Part shown: positions 3,013-11,405 of the stretch, one piece after another
How positions within the stretch are numbered: position 1 is the stretch's first letter
How the letters are laid out: every line of letters begins with the position of its first letter
Assembly (NCBI RefSeq): GCF_018918045.1
Contig: NZ_JAHLPU010000015.1
Coordinates: forward strand, 1 to 64,000
DNA from: Pseudoflavonifractor sp. MSJ-30
GTDB taxonomy: Bacteria; Bacillota; Clostridia; Oscillospirales; Oscillospiraceae
Reading direction: 5' to 3'
DNA length: 64,000 nucleotides
The notes under the pieces: generated by a model
Told to the model about the DNA's origin: nothing
Database searches by the model: none
What the model saw: only the letters and a program-made list of their open reading frames with translations
Position numbers and translations under genes: made by a program

Positions 3013-4497
3013 TTATACCACAGGAATCAGCAGCATCCTTCCCGGCTCCGGTTCCCCTTCCAGCTTGTTGGCAGTCCGGATAGCCTCCACCGTGGAGCCG
3101 TTGTCCTTTGCCAGGTTCCAGAGGCTCCTTCCCCCCGTCCGGCACAGGATCAGCGAGGGACGGGAAGCGTCCTTGCTCTCCGGCTCTCCAAGCTCGATGG
3201 ACGTAACCACCGGTATACCGGCCCCGGCGAAGCTCGTCACCTGGAATCGGCACTCCCCCGTCACCCTTCCCGCTCCCGGACTCAGTTGGGGCCGCACCGG
3301 CTGGAGGGCGGTCAAAGCCAGCTTTGTCTGAGCGTCAGCCGCCATTTCCTTCTTCCCTTCCCAGTGCGGATGGGCGCCGTTCAGGCCCTGATCGGTTTGG
3401 TAAAGCATCTGGGTCACTCCCTGCGTCTCCAGGCTGAAGCCGTCTTCCGTGCGCTCCCAGGTGGGGATATCCCATGCGCCCCGCAGGTCTACGGCGTTGT
3501 CCGCATCCTCCGGCAGCTCTGCTTCTCCGCTGAGGCTCTCCCAACGGCGCTCCAGAATGGGGGTAAGTTCCAGGGTGTCCCAAGTCATTTTCAAGGGTCT
3601 TCTGGTGCTGTAGCCATCCTCCAGGGTCTCCGTCATGGTCACGTCGCTGAGGGCATACTGGGCCGTCAGCCCCACCCGCAGGCGGTGCTCCCCCTCTTGA
3701 TCCGTCTCTGCCTCAAAATTGGTAACGCAGAGCTGGATATCCGCTTCGCCGTCGTTCCCATAGGCCCGGTCCAACTCGATAATCTGGGAAAAAGGCAGCG
3801 TAAAGCGCTGATCCCGCGGCTTTCCCTCTCCGTCCAGCAGCAGCCCCGTGACCTCCGCGCTGCCCCGGAAGGCGATCTTATCTCCGACCACCCTCTGATC
3901 CGTCAAATTTGTAAGCACCGTGCAGGCAATCAGCTTTCCCTGCCCGTCCCCCTGAGACGCCGCGCTGTCCTCCAACGCAAAGCTCTTCTCCCCTGCCTCC
4001 GTGTACAGCCGCAGAGGATACTGCTTCCGAAGCAGCTGCACATCCTCCGGCACCTGTTCCGCCCGGTACAGTTCAGCCTGCTTCGGCATCAATGCCAGAC
4101 AGTTCAGGCCGATCCCCGCCCGCACCAGAATCTTTCTGGGAGAGACGGGCCTTGCGTCCAGTGAACGCAGAACGGTCTGCACCATCATATGCCCATCCTC
4201 GTTATTCTCCGGCAGATCCCACTTTCCCTGAAAGCTGATCCAGCCATCCAGCGCCCTGAGCTGGGAACCGTCTTCCGGCTGATAGAGGACCCATACCAAT
4301 ACGCCTCCGGCTGCCGTAAGCGTGTCGGAGCGCCATTCCTTGCTCCGCAGCACCGTCTGGCCCCAGCAGCCAATGATCCGCTCTACGTCCGGCATACCGT
4401 CCGGCAGACGGATCTGCTGGGTCTGTTCCAGATTCCTGCTGCCTGCGGCCACCGGTTCCAGATAGGAAATCGATGTGCTTTTCAATTGCATTTCCAT
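3013..4497 (-). CDS. SPOCS (DUF3794) and LysM domain protein, spore-coat/peptidoglycan associated
   Basis: A 494-residue protein with SPOCS/DUF3794-like segments, repeated through about residues 10-420 (for example VVGDKIAFRGSAEVTGLLL and the C-terminal TSIELGEPE), and a C-terminal LysM domain (about 450-494: SLWNLAKDNGSTVEAIRTANKL then PGRMLLIPVV). SPOCS domains occur in spore-coat morphogenetic proteins; LysM binds peptidoglycan. Together they suggest a protein anchored at the spore cortex or coat. No signal peptide is visible, as expected if made in the mother cell. The ATG at 4497 is preceded by GGAG seven bases upstream; the longer frame lacks such a site. Strong SPOCS plus LysM assignment, unknown exact role. 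Confidence 0.8.
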   Translation of the reverse strand: MEMQLKSTSISYLEPVAAGSRNLEQTQQIRLPDGMPDVERIIGCWGQTVLRSKEWRSDTLTAAGGVLVWVLYQPEDGSQLRALDGWISFQGKWDLPENNEDGHMMVQTVLRSLDARPVSPRKILVRAGIGLNCLALMPKQAELYRAEQVPEDVQLLRKQYPLRLYTEAGEKSFALEDSAASQGDGQGKLIACTVLTNLTDQRVVGDKIAFRGSAEVTGLLLDGEGKPRDQRFTLPFSQIIELDRAYGNDGEADIQLCVTNFEAETDQEGEHRLRVGLTAQYALSDVTMTETLEDGYSTRRPLKMTWDTLELTPILERRWESLSGEAELPEDADNAVDLRGAWDIPTWERTEDGFSLETQGVTQMLYQTDQGLNGAHPHWEGKKEMAADAQTKLALTALQPVRPQLSPGAGRVTGECRFQVTSFAGAGIPVVTSIELGEPESKDASRPSLILCRTGGRSLWNLAKDNGSTVEAIRTANKLEGEPEPGRMLLIPVV

Positions 4498-4570
4498 AGA
4501 ACTCACTCCTTCGCACCCCGGCAAATGCACTGCCTGCTCTTACTGTATGCCCGCGGTAAAACATCTATGC

Positions 4571-4779: not shown

Positions 4780-5484
4780 TCAGCCGCCCAGATATGCCTT
4801 CCGGACCTCGTCGGATTTGGCAAGTTCCACGCCGGTACCGGTCAGGGTGATGGAACCGGTCTCCAGAACATAAGCCCGATCCGCAATCTGCAGGGCCTTT
4901 CTGGCGTTCTGCTCCACCAGCAGGATGGTGGTTCCGGACTTATGCAGTTCCTTGATGATGCCGAATACCTGATCCACGATAATAGGGGCAAGGCCCATGG
5001 AGGGCTCATCCAGCATCATGAGCTTGGGGTGGGACATCAAAGCCCGGGACATGGCCAGCATCTGCTGCTCGCCGCCGGACAGGGTGCCTGCCACCTGCTT
5101 ACGCCGCTCCTTCAGGCGTGGGAAATAGTTGAAGACCATTTCCAGATCCTCCTGGGAAACGGACTTGTTGATGTATGCACCCATCTCCAGATTTTCCTGA
5201 ACGGACATCTGCAAAAAGATGCGGCGTCCCTCCGGCACATGGGCCAGACCCGTGCGCAGCAGCTTATAGGCCTCCGTGTGGGTGATGTTCTGGCCGCAGA
5301 AGGTAATGGTTCCCGTCCGGGGGTGCATCAGGCCGGAGACAGTCTTCAGGATGGTGCTCTTGCCTGCGCCGTTGGCGCCGATCAGGGCCACGATTTCCCC
5401 GTCGCCCACCTCGAAAGACACGTTTTTCACCGCGTGAATGGCGCCGTAGTATACGTCAATATTCTCAACCTTCAGCATTTGCAT
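4780..5484 (-). CDS. livF: Branched-chain amino-acid ABC transporter ATPase LivF
   Basis: A 234-residue ATPase with Walker A GANGAGKST, Q-loop, the LivF-type HVPEGRRIF segment, signature LSGGEQQ, Walker B LMMLDEPSMGLAP and the H-loop replaced by the family-typical VEQN. LivF pairs with LivG to power uptake of Leu/Ile/Val through LivH and LivM. The start is set at 5484 because AGGAGG lies correctly upstream; a GTG at 5487 and an ATG at 5478 are alternatives. The gene overlaps the end of livG by 20 bases, so translation is coupled. It is the last gene of the operon. Confidence 0.93.
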   Translation of the reverse strand: MQMLKVENIDVYYGAIHAVKNVSFEVGDGEIVALIGANGAGKSTILKTVSGLMHPRTGTITFCGQNITHTEAYKLLRTGLAHVPEGRRIFLQMSVQENLEMGAYINKSVSQEDLEMVFNYFPRLKERRKQVAGTLSGGEQQMLAMSRALMSHPKLMMLDEPSMGLAPIIVDQVFGIIKELHKSGTTILLVEQNARKALQIADRAYVLETGSITLTGTGVELAKSDEVRKAYLGG

Positions 5485-6322
5485 CACCCTCCTCCTTGCC
5501 TAAGTAGGCCTCAATAACCGCGGGATTTGTCCGGATTTCGTCCGGAGTGCCCTTGGCAATGATGCGCCCGTAGTTGACCACGGCGATGGCCTCGCAGACG
5601 TTCATGACCAGGTTCATATCGTGCTCAATGAGAAAAATAGCCACATGGAAGGTATCCCGGATACGGCGGATCTGGTGCATCAGCTCCGTGGTCTCGCTGG
5701 GGTTCATACCGGCGGCAGGCTCGTCCAACAGAATAACGGACGGATTGGTCGCCAGAGCGCGGACAATCTCCAGACGGCGCTGGACGCCGTAGGGCAGACT
5801 GCCGGCCTTGGTATCGGCAAACTCCGCAAGGCCCATAAAATCCAGCAGCTCCATAGCCTTCTGGTTGGCTCTCTTCTCAGCCTTGTAGTAACCGGGCAGA
5901 TGAAGTACGCTCTCAAAGAAGGAGCACTTGATATCGTTGTGCATCCCCACCTTTACATTGTCCAGCACGGACATATCCGTAAACAGGCGGATGTTCTGGA
6001 AGGTACGGGCGATGCCGAGCTTATTGACCTTATGAACCGGCATACCCTTGATATCAATGCCGTTGACCAGTACGCTGCCCCGGGTAGGCTGGTACACGCC
6101 GGTGAGCAGATTGAAAATTGTGGTCTTGCCGGCGCCGTTAGGGCCGATGAGTCCGGATATCTCGGTGGGACCGATGGTGATATTGAAGCCGTCCACAGCG
6201 GTCAGGCCCCCGAAGTCGATGCCCAGATTCCGAACGTCCAGAACGGGCTGCTTGCCCTGGTCCTGTTCCCGGACAAAAGTAACGGTAGGCACCTTCAGAA
6301 TTTTTTTGGAATACTCATTCAT
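5465..6322 (-). CDS. livG: Branched-chain amino-acid ABC transporter ATPase LivG
   Basis: A 285-residue ATPase with Walker A GPNGAGKTT, the LivG-specific ARTFQNIRLF segment, signature LPYGVQRR (LSYGxQRR type), Walker B VILLDEPAAGMNP and IEHDM. Residues 1-30 form an N-terminal extension before the ABC fold. Start at 6322 (MNEYSKK) is supported by AGGAGG 8-13 bases upstream and overlaps the livM stop by 8 bases. It works with LivF on the cytoplasmic face of the LivHM channel. Confidence 0.94.
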   Translation of the reverse strand: MNEYSKKILKVPTVTFVREQDQGKQPVLDVRNLGIDFGGLTAVDGFNITIGPTEISGLIGPNGAGKTTIFNLLTGVYQPTRGSVLVNGIDIKGMPVHKVNKLGIARTFQNIRLFTDMSVLDNVKVGMHNDIKCSFFESVLHLPGYYKAEKRANQKAMELLDFMGLAEFADTKAGSLPYGVQRRLEIVRALATNPSVILLDEPAAGMNPSETTELMHQIRRIRDTFHVAIFLIEHDMNLVMNVCEAIAVVNYGRIIAKGTPDEIRTNPAVIEAYLGKEEGDANAEG

Positions 6323-7385
6323 GGAAAGCTGCCTCCTTCTCGTTTTTACGGAATACACCCCGCACCTTATCCGTCACCACAGAGATAATATCCTTCATCT
6401 TGGGAGACCAGGTAAAGAGCATAACCAGAATCAGAACAACGGCGTAAAGAATCATCCGGTAGTCCTGCAAACCGCGCATGGCCTCCGGCAGGATATACAG
6501 AACCGTTGCGGAGATAATGGAACCCAGAATGTTGCCCATGCCGCCCAGCACCACAAACACCAGAATGTTGATGGAGGTGTTGAAGTTAAACTTGGAGGCA
6601 GTGATGGAGCCATAGTTCATGGCATACAGCGCGCCAGCCATACCTGCCAGAAAAGCAGAAACCACAAAGGCTTTCATGCGGAAAGCGGTGACGTTAATGC
6701 CAACGGATTCCGCCGCGATCCGGTTATCCCGGACGGCCTTGATGGCCCGGCCTTCCCTGGAGTTGATCAGGTTCTGCACCACGAACAGGGTGAAGAGAAT
6801 CAGCACGAAGCCGATTGCAAAGGTAGAGAGCTTGGTAATGCCCGTAGCGCCCCGGGGACCGGAGATGATCATCTTTCCGCCCTCGGCCAGGGTCAGGCCC
6901 TCGGTCTTGAGGGTGGCGTGCAGACCGGTTTCGTCCACGCCCAGGTAGAGGTTGCCGAACACATTCTTCATGATCTCACCGAAAGCCAGGGTCACGATGG
7001 CCAGATAGTCGCCTCGCAGCCGCAGCACGGGGATGCCGATCAAAAAGCCTACAACGCCTGCCAGTACACCGCCGGCAATCATGCCCATCACCAGCCGCAG
7101 CACACCGTTCGGCACCGCTTCAGCCAGCAGGGATGTTACAACGATTCCCGTAAAAGCGCCGATTCCCATAAATCCCGCGTGGCCCAGGCTCAACTCACCG
7201 CAGATACCAACCAGCAGGTTCAGAGATACCGCCAGCACAATATAAGCGCATGCGGGCACCAGGAAGCCCTTGGTGGTGCTGTTCAGCTTTCCCTGGGTAG
7301 ACAGCACCTGCAGAATAAGAAACGCGGCTGTTACCAAAATGTAAGTGGAAGCATTTTTTACTTGATTCCGATTCAGTTTCTTCAT
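6315..7385 (-). CDS. livM: Branched-chain amino-acid ABC transporter permease LivM
   Basis: A 356-residue permease with about eight to ten hydrophobic helices and the family core ICGELSLGHAGFMGIGA, then GIPVLRLRGDYLAIVTLAFGEI, and the cytoplasmic motif REGRAIKAVRDNRIAAESVGIN that docks on the ATPase. The start at 7385 (MKKLNRNQ) lies 10 bases after the livH stop; the longer frame would overlap livH. Forms the membrane channel with LivH. Confidence 0.94.
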   Translation of the reverse strand: MKKLNRNQVKNASTYILVTAAFLILQVLSTQGKLNSTTKGFLVPACAYIVLAVSLNLLVGICGELSLGHAGFMGIGAFTGIVVTSLLAEAVPNGVLRLVMGMIAGGVLAGVVGFLIGIPVLRLRGDYLAIVTLAFGEIMKNVFGNLYLGVDETGLHATLKTEGLTLAEGGKMIISGPRGATGITKLSTFAIGFVLILFTLFVVQNLINSREGRAIKAVRDNRIAAESVGINVTAFRMKAFVVSAFLAGMAGALYAMNYGSITASKFNFNTSINILVFVVLGGMGNILGSIISATVLYILPEAMRGLQDYRMILYAVVLILVMLFTWSPKMKDIISVVTDKVRGVFRKNEKEAAFHE

Positions 7386-7395
7386 TGGACGCACC

Positions 7396-8277
7396 TCAAA
7401 CCTTCTCCTGAACCTGCTTGCCAAGGAGGCCCGCCGGTTTCACCAGCAAAATGACAATCAGCACGCCAAACACAATGGCATCACTGAACTGGGGGCTTAA
7501 ATATGCCTTGCTGAAGGTCTCGATAACGCCAAGCAGAATACCGCCCAGCATTGCGCCGGGAATAGAACCGATGCCGCCCAGAACAGCCGCCGTAAAGGCA
7601 CGAATGCCGGGCATGGAACCGGTGGTAGGCTGCAGCGTCGGCACGGTGGAACACAGCAGCACGCCCGCAATAGCAGCCAGCGCGGAGCCAATGGCAAAGG
7701 TCGTAGAGATGGTCTTATTCACGCTGATGCCCATGAGTTCCGCGGCCTCCCGGTCCTCAGAGACGGCACGCATGGCCTTCCCCGTGCGGGTCTTGCCCGT
7801 AAACCAGGTCAGGCCCACCATGATGACAATGGAAGCAATAATGGTTACAATGACCTCTCCTGTGATTACCAGCTGACCTCCCGCCAGCCGCAGAGGCTGG
7901 AAGGTAACAACGCTGGTATAGTTCTTGGGGCTGGAGGACCAAATCAGCTGGGCCGCGTTCTGCAGAAAGTAGCTGACGCCGATGGCCGTAATCAGAACGG
8001 CCAGGCTGGGAGTCCCCCGCAGAGGCTTGTATGCAAGCGCCTCAATGAGCATACCAAGAGCCGTACAGACTGCCATAGCCGCCAGGATGGAAACCACAAC
8101 GGGCAGTCCCAGGTAATTGGTAACGCAGAAGGAAATATAAGCACCCACCATGATAATATCACCGTGGGCAAAGTTCAGCATTTTCGCAATGCCGTAGACC
8201 ATGGTATAGCCCAGCGCGATAATGGCGTAAACGGAACCGATGCTGATACCATTGATCAGATACTGAATGATTTTCAT
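7396..8277 (-). CDS. livH: Branched-chain amino-acid ABC transporter permease LivH
   Basis: A 293-residue permease with about eight helices. It has the conserved GSVYAIIALGYTMVYGIAKMLNFAHGDI start, the RAVSEDREAAELMGI coupling segment and the AAVLGGIGSIPGAMLGG signature. A GAGAGGGG site precedes the ATG. It is separated from livK by 125 bases that fold into two hairpins (8303-8388). Confidence 0.94.
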   Translation of the reverse strand: MKIIQYLINGISIGSVYAIIALGYTMVYGIAKMLNFAHGDIIMVGAYISFCVTNYLGLPVVVSILAAMAVCTALGMLIEALAYKPLRGTPSLAVLITAIGVSYFLQNAAQLIWSSSPKNYTSVVTFQPLRLAGGQLVITGEVIVTIIASIVIMVGLTWFTGKTRTGKAMRAVSEDREAAELMGISVNKTISTTFAIGSALAAIAGVLLCSTVPTLQPTTGSMPGIRAFTAAVLGGIGSIPGAMLGGILLGVIETFSKAYLSPQFSDAIVFGVLIVILLVKPAGLLGKQVQEKV

Positions 8278-8402: not shown

Positions 8403-9605
8403 TCAGGCCATGGGAACGTAGACGCCGTTCTCAACAACCACAGCGGCAGGAGCCTTGGAGATCATGCCGTTCTCATCCCAGTGCATGCCGGAGCCGGTCA
8501 GACCGTCAACGGACATGGTGGCGAACTGAGCCTTCAGGGCATCGCAGATCTCGGAAGCGGATTCATCGCCCGTGATATTGGCAGCAGTCAGGGCATCGTA
8601 GATGGCGTAAATCACATCGTAGCCGTCAGCAGCAAACTGGTTGGGCACCAGACCGTCCATCTTGGCCTTGAACTTGGTAACGAAGGACTGAGTTGCCTCG
8701 TCGGAAGCGTTGGCATCGAAGGGGGTCATCAGCACCAGGCCCTCGGCAAGAGAGGTATCAAAGCCTTCCACAGTCAGGATACCGTCCATACCGTCGCAGC
8801 CGAAGAACTTGGGAGCATAGCTGATACGGCTCGCGTAAGTCAGGATCTGAGAAGCCTCCGTATAGTAGATGGGCAGGAAGACCAGATCGGCGCCTGCATT
8901 CTGGCACTGGGTCACCTGGGTAGACAGGTCGGCCTTGCTGTCAGCGGTGAAGGAAGTAGTGGCGACAACCTCAACACCCAGCTCGGCAGCCTTGGTCTTA
9001 AAGCCGTTGTACAGGCCGGTAGAGTAGTCGTCGGAAGAGTCGTAGATGACACCGACCTTGGCGCCGGCATACTTGGTGGAAACCAGCTCAGCGGCGGAAG
9101 CACCCTGGTTGGGGTCGGTGAAGCACATCTGGAAGATATTGTCGCCGGTGAGGGCCAGAGCCTCAGCAGAGGCAGAGGGAGTCAGGTTGAACATGTTGTC
9201 GGCAACGGACTCAGGCGCGACGGCCAGAGCGGAGCCGGTGGTAACCTGACCGGCCATGACCTGCATGCCCCAGTCCTTCAGGGCGTTGTAGGCGGAAACG
9301 GCCTTTTCGCCGTCGGCCTCGTCGTCCTCAGCTTTGAACTCGATTTGCAGACCGCCCTTGGCGTTGATTTCCTCAACGGCGACCTCCATGCCGGCGCGGA
9401 CAGCCAGACCGTAAGCGGAAGCACGGCCGGTCAGAGGACCGGACATGCCGATCTTTACGGTACCGACGCCTTCGGCAGCGGTTTCACCGGCGGCAGCCGT
9501 GGTCTCGGCAGCGGCGGTGGTTGCGGTGGACGCGCTCTTGCCGCAGCCTGCGAAGGAAGCGGCGACCAGGGCCAGAGCCATGGTCAATGCAAGTACCTTT
9601 TTCAT
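8403..9605 (-). CDS. livK: Branched-chain amino-acid ABC transporter substrate-binding lipoprotein
   Basis: A 400-residue periplasmic-binding-protein-fold lipoprotein. Residues 1-20 are a lipoprotein signal peptide with lipobox SFAG-C21, followed by a low-complexity Ala/Thr linker (about 22-45), then the type I binding fold beginning GTVKIGMSGPLTG. It captures extracellular Leu/Ile/Val (or related amino acids) for LivHMGF. First gene of the operon; an AAAGGAGAAAAG site precedes the ATG. It is preceded by a leader ORF and terminator that look like an attenuator. Confidence 0.93.
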   Translation of the reverse strand: MKKVLALTMALALVAASFAGCGKSASTATTAAAETTAAAGETAAEGVGTVKIGMSGPLTGRASAYGLAVRAGMEVAVEEINAKGGLQIEFKAEDDEADGEKAVSAYNALKDWGMQVMAGQVTTGSALAVAPESVADNMFNLTPSASAEALALTGDNIFQMCFTDPNQGASAAELVSTKYAGAKVGVIYDSSDDYSTGLYNGFKTKAAELGVEVVATTSFTADSKADLSTQVTQCQNAGADLVFLPIYYTEASQILTYASRISYAPKFFGCDGMDGILTVEGFDTSLAEGLVLMTPFDANASDEATQSFVTKFKAKMDGLVPNQFAADGYDVIYAIYDALTAANITGDESASEICDALKAQFATMSVDGLTGSGMHWDENGMISKAPAAVVVENGVYVPMA

Positions 9606-9630: not shown

Positions 9631-9665
9631 ACTACAAAAAAGCGATTGCACACCGCAACCGCTTC
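9631..9665 (-). terminator. Attenuator terminator in the liv leader
   Basis: Minus strand: AAGCGGTTGC (9655-9664) pairs with GCAATCGCTT (9640-9649) over a 5-base loop, then a T-rich tail from 9641 down. It lies between the leader ORF and livK, inside one transcription unit, so it must be conditional. Its 5' arm core CGGTTGC can instead pair with GCAATCG (9686-9692) just after the leader stop codon. Confidence 0.75.
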
Positions 9666-9694
9666 TTCATACGAAATGAATACCCCGATTGCTT

Positions 9695-9820
9695 TCAGCT
9701 CCGAATAATGGGCAGCAGGCGCAGAATGGCAACCCGCAGACCGGCCAGCTTCAGCTCGGGAATCAATCGTCCGGAGGCCCGGGATGCAGCGTTTTGAAAT
9801 TGCGTTTCCATCGTCTTCAT
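9695..9820 (-). CDS. Leader peptide of the liv operon (41 aa, Leu/Ile/Val rich)
   Basis: A 41-codon ORF starting about 25 bases after the predicted transcription start, with a GGGGG ribosome site 8-12 bases upstream. The last 23 codons hold 12 Leu/Ile/Val residues, including the run VAILRLLPII just before the stop. It encodes no recognisable protein and sits between the liv promoter and the conditional terminator. A copy of the terminator's 3' arm (GCAATCG, 9686-9692) starts three bases after the stop, where a ribosome ending translation would cover it. All this fits a classical amino-acid leader peptide whose stalling on charged-tRNA shortage allows an antiterminator. It is inference from layout; no expression evidence. 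Confidence 0.7.
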   Translation of the reverse strand: MKTMETQFQNAASRASGRLIPELKLAGLRVAILRLLPIIRS

Positions 9821-9850
9821 CTGGGCAACCCCCTTCTTGAATGTGTCCAT

Positions 9851-9879
9851 ATTGTATCTCGCACAAGGACATTTGTCAA
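9851..9879 (-). promoter_or_regulatory. sigmaA promoter of the liv operon
   Basis: Minus strand TTGACA (9874-9879), exactly 17 bases, TACAAT (9851-9856). The start site would be near 9844, giving a short 5' end before the leader ATG at 9820. Confidence 0.8.
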
Positions 9880-9987
9880 CAAGGTAAACACTACATATAA
9901 TGTTTAACAGTTCCTTCATTTTTTGTACAAAATAACAAGAGAAATTGTCATTCCTCTCCGGACAACTGTCCGCACAGGAAAGCAAAT

Positions 9988-10017
9988 GAGCCATTGCGGT
10001 ATCCTGCGCAATGGCTC
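9988..10017 (-). terminator. Terminator-like hairpin after the PBP gene
   Basis: Perfect 10-bp arms GAGCCATTGC (9988-9997) and GCAATGGCTC (10008-10017), 11 bases past the PBP stop. The trailing T-run is weak. Confidence 0.6.
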
Positions 10018-10028
10018 AAAACAAGTCT

Positions 10029-11405
10029 TTAGTTCCGGCTATCCAACGCAGCCTTGCAAATCGGCAGGACCTGAGAAAGAATAGGCACACAGGTTGCACT
10101 GCCGTAGCCGCCGTTTTCAACAACGACAATGAAGGCCAGCGGATACGCCTCATCCATTACAAAACCGGCGAACATGGCGTTGGACTTCTGTCCCCCGCCC
10201 AACTGGCTGGTGCCGGACTTGGCACAGACGGACAGGCCCGGGAAATTCCCGTCGCCGTAAATGGTCCGCACATTGTTGCGGAGGTACTGCTGCAGCTTTT
10301 TTGCCGTAGCTTCGCTCATAATCCGTCCCGTGCTTTTCCCGGAGGCGGTATACAGGGTCTCCTCACCCCGGGTAACATCGGAAACCAGATAGGGCTCCAC
10401 GCCTTTGCCCCCCGCGGCGATGGTGCCGACAAAGGTCATAAACCGGGCAGGGTTGATAAGATCGGAATGCTGCCCGATGCAGCTCCAGGCAAAAGAGGCT
10501 CCGCCGGTGTCTTTGATATCGTAATTGCCCTTGGCGCTGGTCACGCCGTCGAAGGACACAGTGTCCGTAATGCCGTATTTCGCGACGTATTTTTCCATAT
10601 TCTTCCGGCCCACCAGCTGAGCAATCTGGGCAAAGCTGCAGTTGCAGGAGTGGGCCAGGGCACCCTTCAGGTCCAGGGTTCCGTGGGCCCGCTCGCAGGT
10701 CACGGCTTCTGTGCCGTATTCATAGGAGCCTGTGCAGGTAAAGGTCCGGCTTTCGATATCCGGCACGCATTCCAGGGCCGCCGCCGTGGTGACGATCTTG
10801 AAAATGGATCCCGGCACATAGGTGGACTGTAAAAACCGGTTCAAATACACGCCCTCGTATTTTCCGGAGGTGTCCCCGGCAATATCCGGCACATTGTCCG
10901 GGTCATAGGTGGGCGAGGTTACTGCGCAGAGGATCTCCCCTGTTTTGTAATTATAGATGCCTACGGTGCCCTTCCTGCCGTTCAGGGCCCGCAGCGCCGC
11001 ATTCTGCACAGCCGCGGAAATGGTCAGAGATTCCACGCCTGTTTCTCCGGCATAGTTATACAGGCCATTGACCTTATCGTACCCTGCCAGAATAGCCGCG
11101 TAGTTGGCGACTGCCTTTGCCTGAATCCTGCCGTTCCGGTCTCCCAGCCAATGCATGGTAGATGCCCTTGTTTCGGCATTGTCCGAGTAGGCGCGGTTGC
11201 CGGAAACATCCAGCAGGACAACACCGTCCCGGTCCACAACGGTGCCGTTGCCCAGATTGCTGTTGTTATAAACATGGGGAGACCCCGTGGCAACGACCCA
11301 CCGGTCTGCTTTCAGGGCATACTCGCCTGCAAAGAAGGCCATGCCGCCCAGAAGCAGCGCCACGAATATGGCCATCATCCAAGTTCTTTTGGTTACTCTG
11401 TTCAT
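10029..11405 (-). CDS. Class B penicillin-binding protein (peptidoglycan transpeptidase)
   Basis: A 458-residue transpeptidase with one N-terminal membrane helix (about residues 9-28), a short dimerisation-type region with the NGTVVDRDGVVLLD motif, and the catalytic domain: SxxK at S200-I-F-K203, SxN at S253-C-N255 and KSGT at K396-T399. It cross-links peptidoglycan outside the membrane. It is short for the class because the pedestal domain is reduced, resembling the PbpA-type enzymes of actinobacteria and clostridia that partner with a SEDS glycosyltransferase. It lies 9 bases behind the FHA-FtsW gene, supporting a matched polymerase/cross-linker pair. Confidence 0.88.
   Translation of the reverse strand: MNRVTKRTWMMAIFVALLLGGMAFFAGEYALKADRWVVATGSPHVYNNSNLGNGTVVDRDGVVLLDVSGNRAYSDNAETRASTMHWLGDRNGRIQAKAVANYAAILAGYDKVNGLYNYAGETGVESLTISAAVQNAALRALNGRKGTVGIYNYKTGEILCAVTSPTYDPDNVPDIAGDTSGKYEGVYLNRFLQSTYVPGSIFKIVTTAAALECVPDIESRTFTCTGSYEYGTEAVTCERAHGTLDLKGALAHSCNCSFAQIAQLVGRKNMEKYVAKYGITDTVSFDGVTSAKGNYDIKDTGGASFAWSCIGQHSDLINPARFMTFVGTIAAGGKGVEPYLVSDVTRGEETLYTASGKSTGRIMSEATAKKLQQYLRNNVRTIYGDGNFPGLSVCAKSGTSQLGGGQKSNAMFAGFVMDEAYPLAFIVVVENGGYGSATCVPILSQVLPICKAALDSRN

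Follow-up and report, generated by a model that had tools for sequence, protein, structure and literature searches.

A probable leader-peptide attenuator upstream of a branched-chain amino acid uptake operon in Oscillospiraceae

A stretch of 64,000 nucleotides, referred to here as the window, carries on its minus strand a livKHMGF operon for the uptake of branched-chain amino acids (BCAAs). This operon is very probably controlled by a ribosome-mediated (leader-peptide) transcription attenuator, for which we infer termination in the cell, a kinetic choice between folds and the charging of Leu, Ile and Val tRNAs as the signal. The genome had been called clostridial from the sequence alone, which holds in the broad sense of the class Clostridia and not in any narrower one. 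The elements of the leader and the genes behind it are as follows.

9851 to 9879, minus strand: sigma-70/A-type promoter, TTGACA-17-TACAAT, 11/12 consensus positions
9829 to 9835, minus strand: Shine-Dalgarno (SD)-like AAGGGGG, its end 8 nt upstream of the leader ATG
9695 to 9820, minus strand: leader ORF of 41 codons, peptide MKTMETQFQNAASRASGRLIPELKLAGLRVAILRLLPIIRS, stop TGA at 9697-9695
9756 to 9769, minus strand: segment 1, CGATTGATTCCCGA, the protector strand, spanning the first Arg-Leu-Ile control codons plus the bases after them
9683 to 9692, minus strand: segment 2, GCAATCGGGG, immediately after the leader stop, partner of segment 1 or segment 3
9655 to 9661, minus strand: segment 3, CGGTTGC, central part of the terminator 5' arm, which doubles as 3' strand of the antiterminator
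9643 to 9649, minus strand: segment 4, GCAATCG, central part of the terminator 3' arm
9633 to 9671, minus strand: intrinsic terminator hairpin before livK, 18 pairs including G-T, with a U-rich 3' side
8403 to 9605, minus strand: livK-like substrate-binding protein for branched-chain amino acids, first gene of the putatively controlled operon
7396 to 8277, minus strand: livH-like permease
6315 to 7424, minus strand: livM-like permease
5465 to 6358, minus strand: livG-like ATPase
4780 to 5487, minus strand: livF-like ATPase

Much of this anatomy had been pointed out by a sequence-only reading of the DNA. The sigmaA promoter that it placed at 9851-9879 is present, and the promoter stretch TTGACAAATGT...GAGATACAAT was found again in relatives. 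The 41-codon ORF with its ribosome site is also as described, 12 of its last 23 codons being for Leu, Ile or Val; in many relatives, the SD position of the leader reads GGAGG. The short segments GCAATCG (9692-9686), its copy (9649-9643), CGGTTGC (9661-9655) and CGATTG (9769-9764) are all exact. The terminator before livK exists as a hairpin, with its limits at 9671-9633 instead of the proposed 9665-9631. For each of the liv genes, the best NCBIfam match is the high-affinity branched-chain transporter subunit of the same name; all these matches lie below the curated cut-off, and the names livKHMGF stand for the best family only. A terminator-like hairpin at 9987-10018 on the minus strand, upstream of the liv promoter, probably ends the preceding penicillin-binding-protein-like gene (10029-11405). 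An opposite-strand promoter-like site, TTGTCA-17-TATAAT (11/12), at 9873-9901 on the plus strand overlaps the liv promoter.

It is proposed that the leader responds to the supply of charged tRNA. When the Leu, Ile and Val tRNAs are charged, the ribosome would get to the leader stop with its footprint over segment 2, and the 3:4 terminator would then form before livK. When charged Leu, Ile or Val tRNA is short, the ribosome would stall on the control codons, and a stall at the first Leu-Ile codons would make it occupy segment 1 itself. Segment 2, left free, would pair with segment 3, the terminator would come too late, and transcription would read through into livK. With no ribosome on the leader, the window RNA is predicted to form 1:2, and termination would be the default.

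The composition of the leader ORF sets it apart. Among the 19 ORFs of 20-70 amino acids in the window that start with ATG behind an SD-like motif, it alone has at least half Leu, Ile and Val in its last 23 codons, and 40 shuffled windows (a crude shuffle of dinucleotide blocks, 35 such ORFs each) gave no ORF with an end rich in these residues. Over the 46 aligned leaders described below, Leu, Ile and Val make up 46.5% of the second half vs 5.9% of the first half. The codons chosen also differ from those of LivK, a strongly biased codon yardstick: ATT serves for 82% of Ile in the second halves vs 27% in LivK, TTG for 28% vs 4% of Leu, and GTA for 38% vs 6% of Val. It is quite improbable, in our estimate, that the attenuator works and yet senses a general slowing of ribosomes, caused by an antibiotic or by a shortage of Arg or rare codons, instead of Leu/Ile/Val-tRNA charging. 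Such a signal would suit the Arg codon CGA, which makes up 38% of the Arg codons in the second halves vs 0% (rounded) of the 37 in LivK, the other LivK-rare codons that are also present there, and the excess of Arg over LivK, which is 21-fold, next to 5.8-fold for His and 2.2-fold for Cys. It would also have a Gram-positive precedent, as the available text on bmrCD of B. subtilis ties the ribosome-mediated attenuation of an ABC transporter to antibiotics (PMC4191407). However, the Arg and His ratios are inflated because LivK is very poor in both, whereas Leu, Ile and Val are each enriched 2- to 3-fold over LivK and fill nearly half of the second half. The control codons fit the cargo of the operon, which by best family match is of a type that moves Leu, Ile and Val.

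Folding energy alone would give the attenuator no support, as the whole-leader minimum free energy (MFE) was no better than that of shuffled sequences (z 0.20). The claim is decided by the relatives. In the leader MFE fold, a 1:2 helix does appear, between UCCCGA (9761-9756) and UCGGGG (9688-9683), and it overlaps the CGATTG:CAATCG pairing of the sequence-only reading. A LivK match at E <= 1e-40 is present in 80 of 136 genomes of the same genus. Where LivK scores at least 300 bits (55 genomes), the element lies directly upstream of it and on the same strand in 46. Nine of the 55 lack an element match: in one, the contig ends and leaves no match (G006), in a second, the region sits on a different contig and has lost its peptide (G140), and the upstream regions of the other seven gave no recognisable full leader.

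The upstream regions were read at 126 loci, named public contigs included, and the 46 loci with a clear leader, the window's own among them, form the alignment A1. It omits five named-record copies of loci already used and one near-copy (L115), two loci with a misplaced livK start (L104, L110), one partial locus (L043), those without a recognised leader, and L026, L028 and five Mogibacterium-type loci, which are too divergent; one locus was kept after its livK start had been reset by hand (L036). Conservation of the leader ORF and the arms in relatives had been set in advance as a test, and both are conserved at the 45 loci besides the window, each with an SD-led ORF whose second half is rich in Leu, Ile and Val. 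The named records that carry the element are metagenome-assembled genomes (MAGs) labelled Oscillospiraceae, Clostridia or Bacillota, and one uncultured Oscillospiraceae record (L075) is included in A1.

A covariance model, R1, was built from the 46 aligned leaders, and the best 25 candidates per genome were scored in the 136 genus genomes. Among the scored candidates, 48 matched at E <= 1e-8, and 48/48 lie directly before LivK; 45 of these are the training sequences of the model and match by construction, while G088, G146 and G158 are the loci that it added, again all before LivK. No strong match away from LivK was found among the best 25 candidates per genus genome. The scored candidates also held 28 weaker matches (E 1e-4 to 0.01), and the six of them that were read proved to be five gene ends with terminators and the livK leader of G140.

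Within A1, the helices have changed in step. The 3:4 terminator is paired in 93.3% of cells, six of its pairs have changed on both sides, and none of 500 shuffles scored as high on any of five measures. The 2:3 antiterminator is paired in 84.9% of cells vs 26-43% in versions slid along the alignment. It has 20 doubly changed cells vs 10.5 in shuffles, a count to be read beside the 18 reached by one slid version, and it beats the shuffles on three of the five measures while the other two do not exceed them. Column 207, which is the last base of the stop codon in many members, pairs with the terminator arm as A-U in 22 sequences and as G-C in 10. The stop codon starts within columns 203-208, that is, in segment 2, in 29 of the 46 sequences; in the window, it stands just before segment 2.

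For 1:2, scanning frames of 16 columns were moved over columns 60-210 of A1, and their duplex with the segment 2 of the same sequence was compared with that formed with another sequence's segment 2. The sole match came from frames within columns 90-115 (z -4.1 to -6.3; 0/2000 permutations), all other positions giving z -2.1 to +2.0. This complementarity had been spotted by eye before the scan, and the permutation leaves sequence relatedness in place. After thinning to 75% identity, z was -5.6 (32 sequences) and at 65% it was -4.5 (24 sequences), while six other stretches treated in the same way gave z -0.3 to +1.8. Columns 90-115 are the region of CGATTG; hence the scan picked the very place that the sequence-only reading had named as a third segment able to pair with segment 2. 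The comparison of relatives thus supports coevolution of 1:2, 2:3 and 3:4, and with it the proposed layout of classical attenuation.

The effect of the ribosome was explored by folding the window RNA up to the end of segment 3 with an assumed ribosome footprint masked. A ribosome whose A site holds the stop codon leaves 0.0 expected 2:3 pairs under the narrower definition of segment 2, in agreement with the claim that a ribosome finishing the leader covers this segment; under a wider definition, 3.6 pairs are kept. A full antiterminator is predicted for stalls at the first Leu-Ile (22-23 codons before the stop; 6.5-6.9 pairs) and at the last Ile-Ile (codons three and four before the stop; 7.0 pairs), as would be expected if a ribosome stalled at Leu/Ile codons frees segment 2. 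Stalls 12-16 codons before the stop, where a Val and a Leu are found, give only 1.7-4.8 pairs in the window. For a ribosome that has yet to reach segment 1 (A site 25-29 codons short of the stop), 0.6-1.4 pairs are expected, and 4.2 at 30. If the RNA behind the ribosome is allowed to pair, stalls at codons 5-13 give 0.0-1.6 pairs in the window. Over the 46 sequences before terminator synthesis, the median is 0.1 pairs at the stop vs 7.0 for a stall 11 codons upstream of it.

Without a ribosome, the window RNA forms 1:2 (9.8 expected pairs) and does not form 2:3. Many relatives, folded up to the same point, favour 2:3 over 1:2 (medians 4.4 and 0.2); thus, being off by default is not a general property, and in these folds the default state may differ among members. 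Once the whole terminator has been made, the window RNA settles into 3:4 at equilibrium whatever the state tested, and no relative keeps more than 2.1 pairs of 2:3. The switch must, therefore, be kinetic and act while RNA polymerase moves. Classical attenuators likewise switch while the polymerase is moving.

Most leaders other than the window's carry a hairpin within the leader ORF, termed H1 (GGACACUGC...GCAGUGUCC), placed after segment 1 and ahead of most control codons; by eye, the window, L014 and L007 are without it. H1 is paired in 96.3% of cells, and seven of its pairs have changed on both sides vs 0.9 in shuffles. Its ten doubly changed cells are matched by one slid version, in which, however, no more than 33.6% of cells are paired. 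The peptide motif LDTAxxLAVSIC is explained by H1. This bears on the idea that the ORF encodes a small membrane protein with a function of its own and that the terminator merely lowers livK expression. By eye, stretches such as LDTAxxLAVSICV... could make a short membrane helix. Yet the conserved motif coincides with an RNA hairpin that shows compensatory changes, segment 1, which lies in the ORF, has coevolved with segment 2, the leader ends vary in length and charge, and the ORF occurs together with the terminator and LivK. Thus, such a protein is a very unlikely explanation.

A second hairpin, H0, is suggested upstream of H1 in many leaders by predicted folds: 29 of the 46 sequences have z below -1, a value also reached by 20% and 39% in two other stretches. 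At columns 46-90 of A1, many leaders have a Cys-Cys-Ala-Ala-rich peptide motif in their first half, at the place of a predicted RNA hairpin. In textbook attenuators, the 1:2 helix provides RNA-polymerase pausing, a role that H1 could have taken over from it here. A lineage-specific geometry may be imagined, in which a long-range 1:2 on the first control codons encloses H1 (often with H0 before it), pausing has moved to H1, and the stop lies in the antiterminator strand. This proposal is tentative, and we lean somewhat against it. If true, it would describe an upstream-ORF switch for nutrient uptake in which pausing and protection are split between two RNA elements, and in which the bases of the stop codon covary with the terminator arm in many members.

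T-boxes bind tRNA directly; the leader of the window has no T-box match. The chance that a T-box, a riboswitch or a CodY site controls livK, with the leader being incidental, appears exceedingly small. The genome does contain T-boxes elsewhere, with 11 matches at E <= 0.001 and five of them confirmed above the cut-off, and the available text of PMC2494555 has T-boxes controlling some BCAA symporters in a group including Clostridia. However, a scan of the leader with Rfam 15 gave no family at its gathering score, T-box (RF00230) included; the sole sub-threshold match was a microRNA family on the terminator. A consensus search for CodY-box-like sites gave none near the leader and two in the whole window, as many as chance would produce. 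A T-box stands upstream of an ABC transporter, MetN/MetI/MetQ-like by eye, in G000 (contig C59, 24000-29560; L134).

The same switch was sought on BCAA biosynthesis and rejected: in six relatives, an ilvA-like gene that precedes leuA (both named by eye) was inspected with its surroundings and upstream sequence, which gave neither an Rfam match nor a small BCAA-rich ORF preceded by an SD motif. One of ten longer stretches had a T-box, situated some kb upstream beside another gene. The idea that auxotrophy is what the switch serves was also rejected. The window genome, a 94.5% complete MAG, has no ilvB match at E <= 0.001 and no ilvD match at E <= 1e-20. Several relatives keep both genes within a few kb, so one lost piece of the assembly could explain their absence. 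Moreover, ilvD is present in 22 of 48 leader-bearing genus genomes vs 16 of 88 without a strong leader match; thus, the leader does not track auxotrophy. The window genome also encodes a BrnQ-type carrier. For a 505-amino-acid ORF at 3013-4530 on the minus strand of the window, NCBIfam gave nothing at E <= 0.001.

That leader peptides attenuate BCAA biosynthesis is established for enterobacteria (PMC6123439). As given in the available text of that review, the leaders of E. coli ilvGMEDA, ilvBN and leuABCD are BCAA-rich, and the rate of their translation sets the terminator against the antiterminator, as proposed here; they serve biosynthetic operons in another phylum. According to the available parts of three papers, such attenuation has been demonstrated or predicted in S. 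aureus, Listeria, Lactococcus, Corynebacterium and streptococci (PMC6123439, PMC5794164, PMC5864092). Rli60 of Listeria monocytogenes (ilv-leu; PMC5864092) and the Leu-rich leader of S. aureus ilvD (PMC5794164) are likewise Firmicutes leaders with many branched-chain codons and, as here, an alternative antiterminator and terminator; mutations in them relieve or tighten termination, according to the accessible text. Both control biosynthesis, whereas the leader of the window sits on the livKHMGF uptake operon. Most A1 leaders differ from them further in the in-ORF hairpin, and a majority in a stop that begins within segment 2; the window has neither trait.

In 2010, amino-acid leader peptides were pointed out in Firmicutes, and the available text describes His leader peptides that stand before hisS paralogs of bacilli (PMC2965389). 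These too are amino-acid-specific; they use His codons and precede hisS-family genes, and the ABC-transporter leaders of that text are other elements. The T-box leaders known on BCAA symporters also sense tRNA charging and control BCAA uptake by antitermination, as far as the available text of PMC2494555 goes. Searches of the open-access literature in its available text, most subscription journals being outside this scope, gave no paper naming a leader-peptide attenuator on a liv uptake operon. The present reading would extend classical leader-peptide attenuation to an operon for BCAA uptake in gut Clostridia that are uncultured and have T-boxes as well, and nearly 50 natural variants would make the rules of attenuation readable by comparison.

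Beyond the genus, R1 was searched against the whole order, with the best 8 candidates per genome at most. Matches at E <= 1e-4 were found in 6/394 genomes, two of them in the genus. The only true case outside the genus in this search is a genome from another genus of the same family (G475), where a BCAA-rich ORF with H1 precedes a gene that is livK-like by eye; four other matches, in three genomes beyond the genus, looked like chance. A different leader rich in Ile, Leu and Val, for example MYLTSSLIVISIISVLLVGRLVEDGFML, stands before livK at L087, L089-L091 and L093, with a terminator-like hairpin ahead of livK. These loci belong to another clostridial group, two being labelled Mogibacterium, and their sequences suggest that the same solution exists elsewhere. 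L026 and L028 come from genus members with about 40% LivK identity to the window; their leaders upstream of livK are longer and very Leu/Ile/Val-rich and seem to have a similar hairpin in the ORF.
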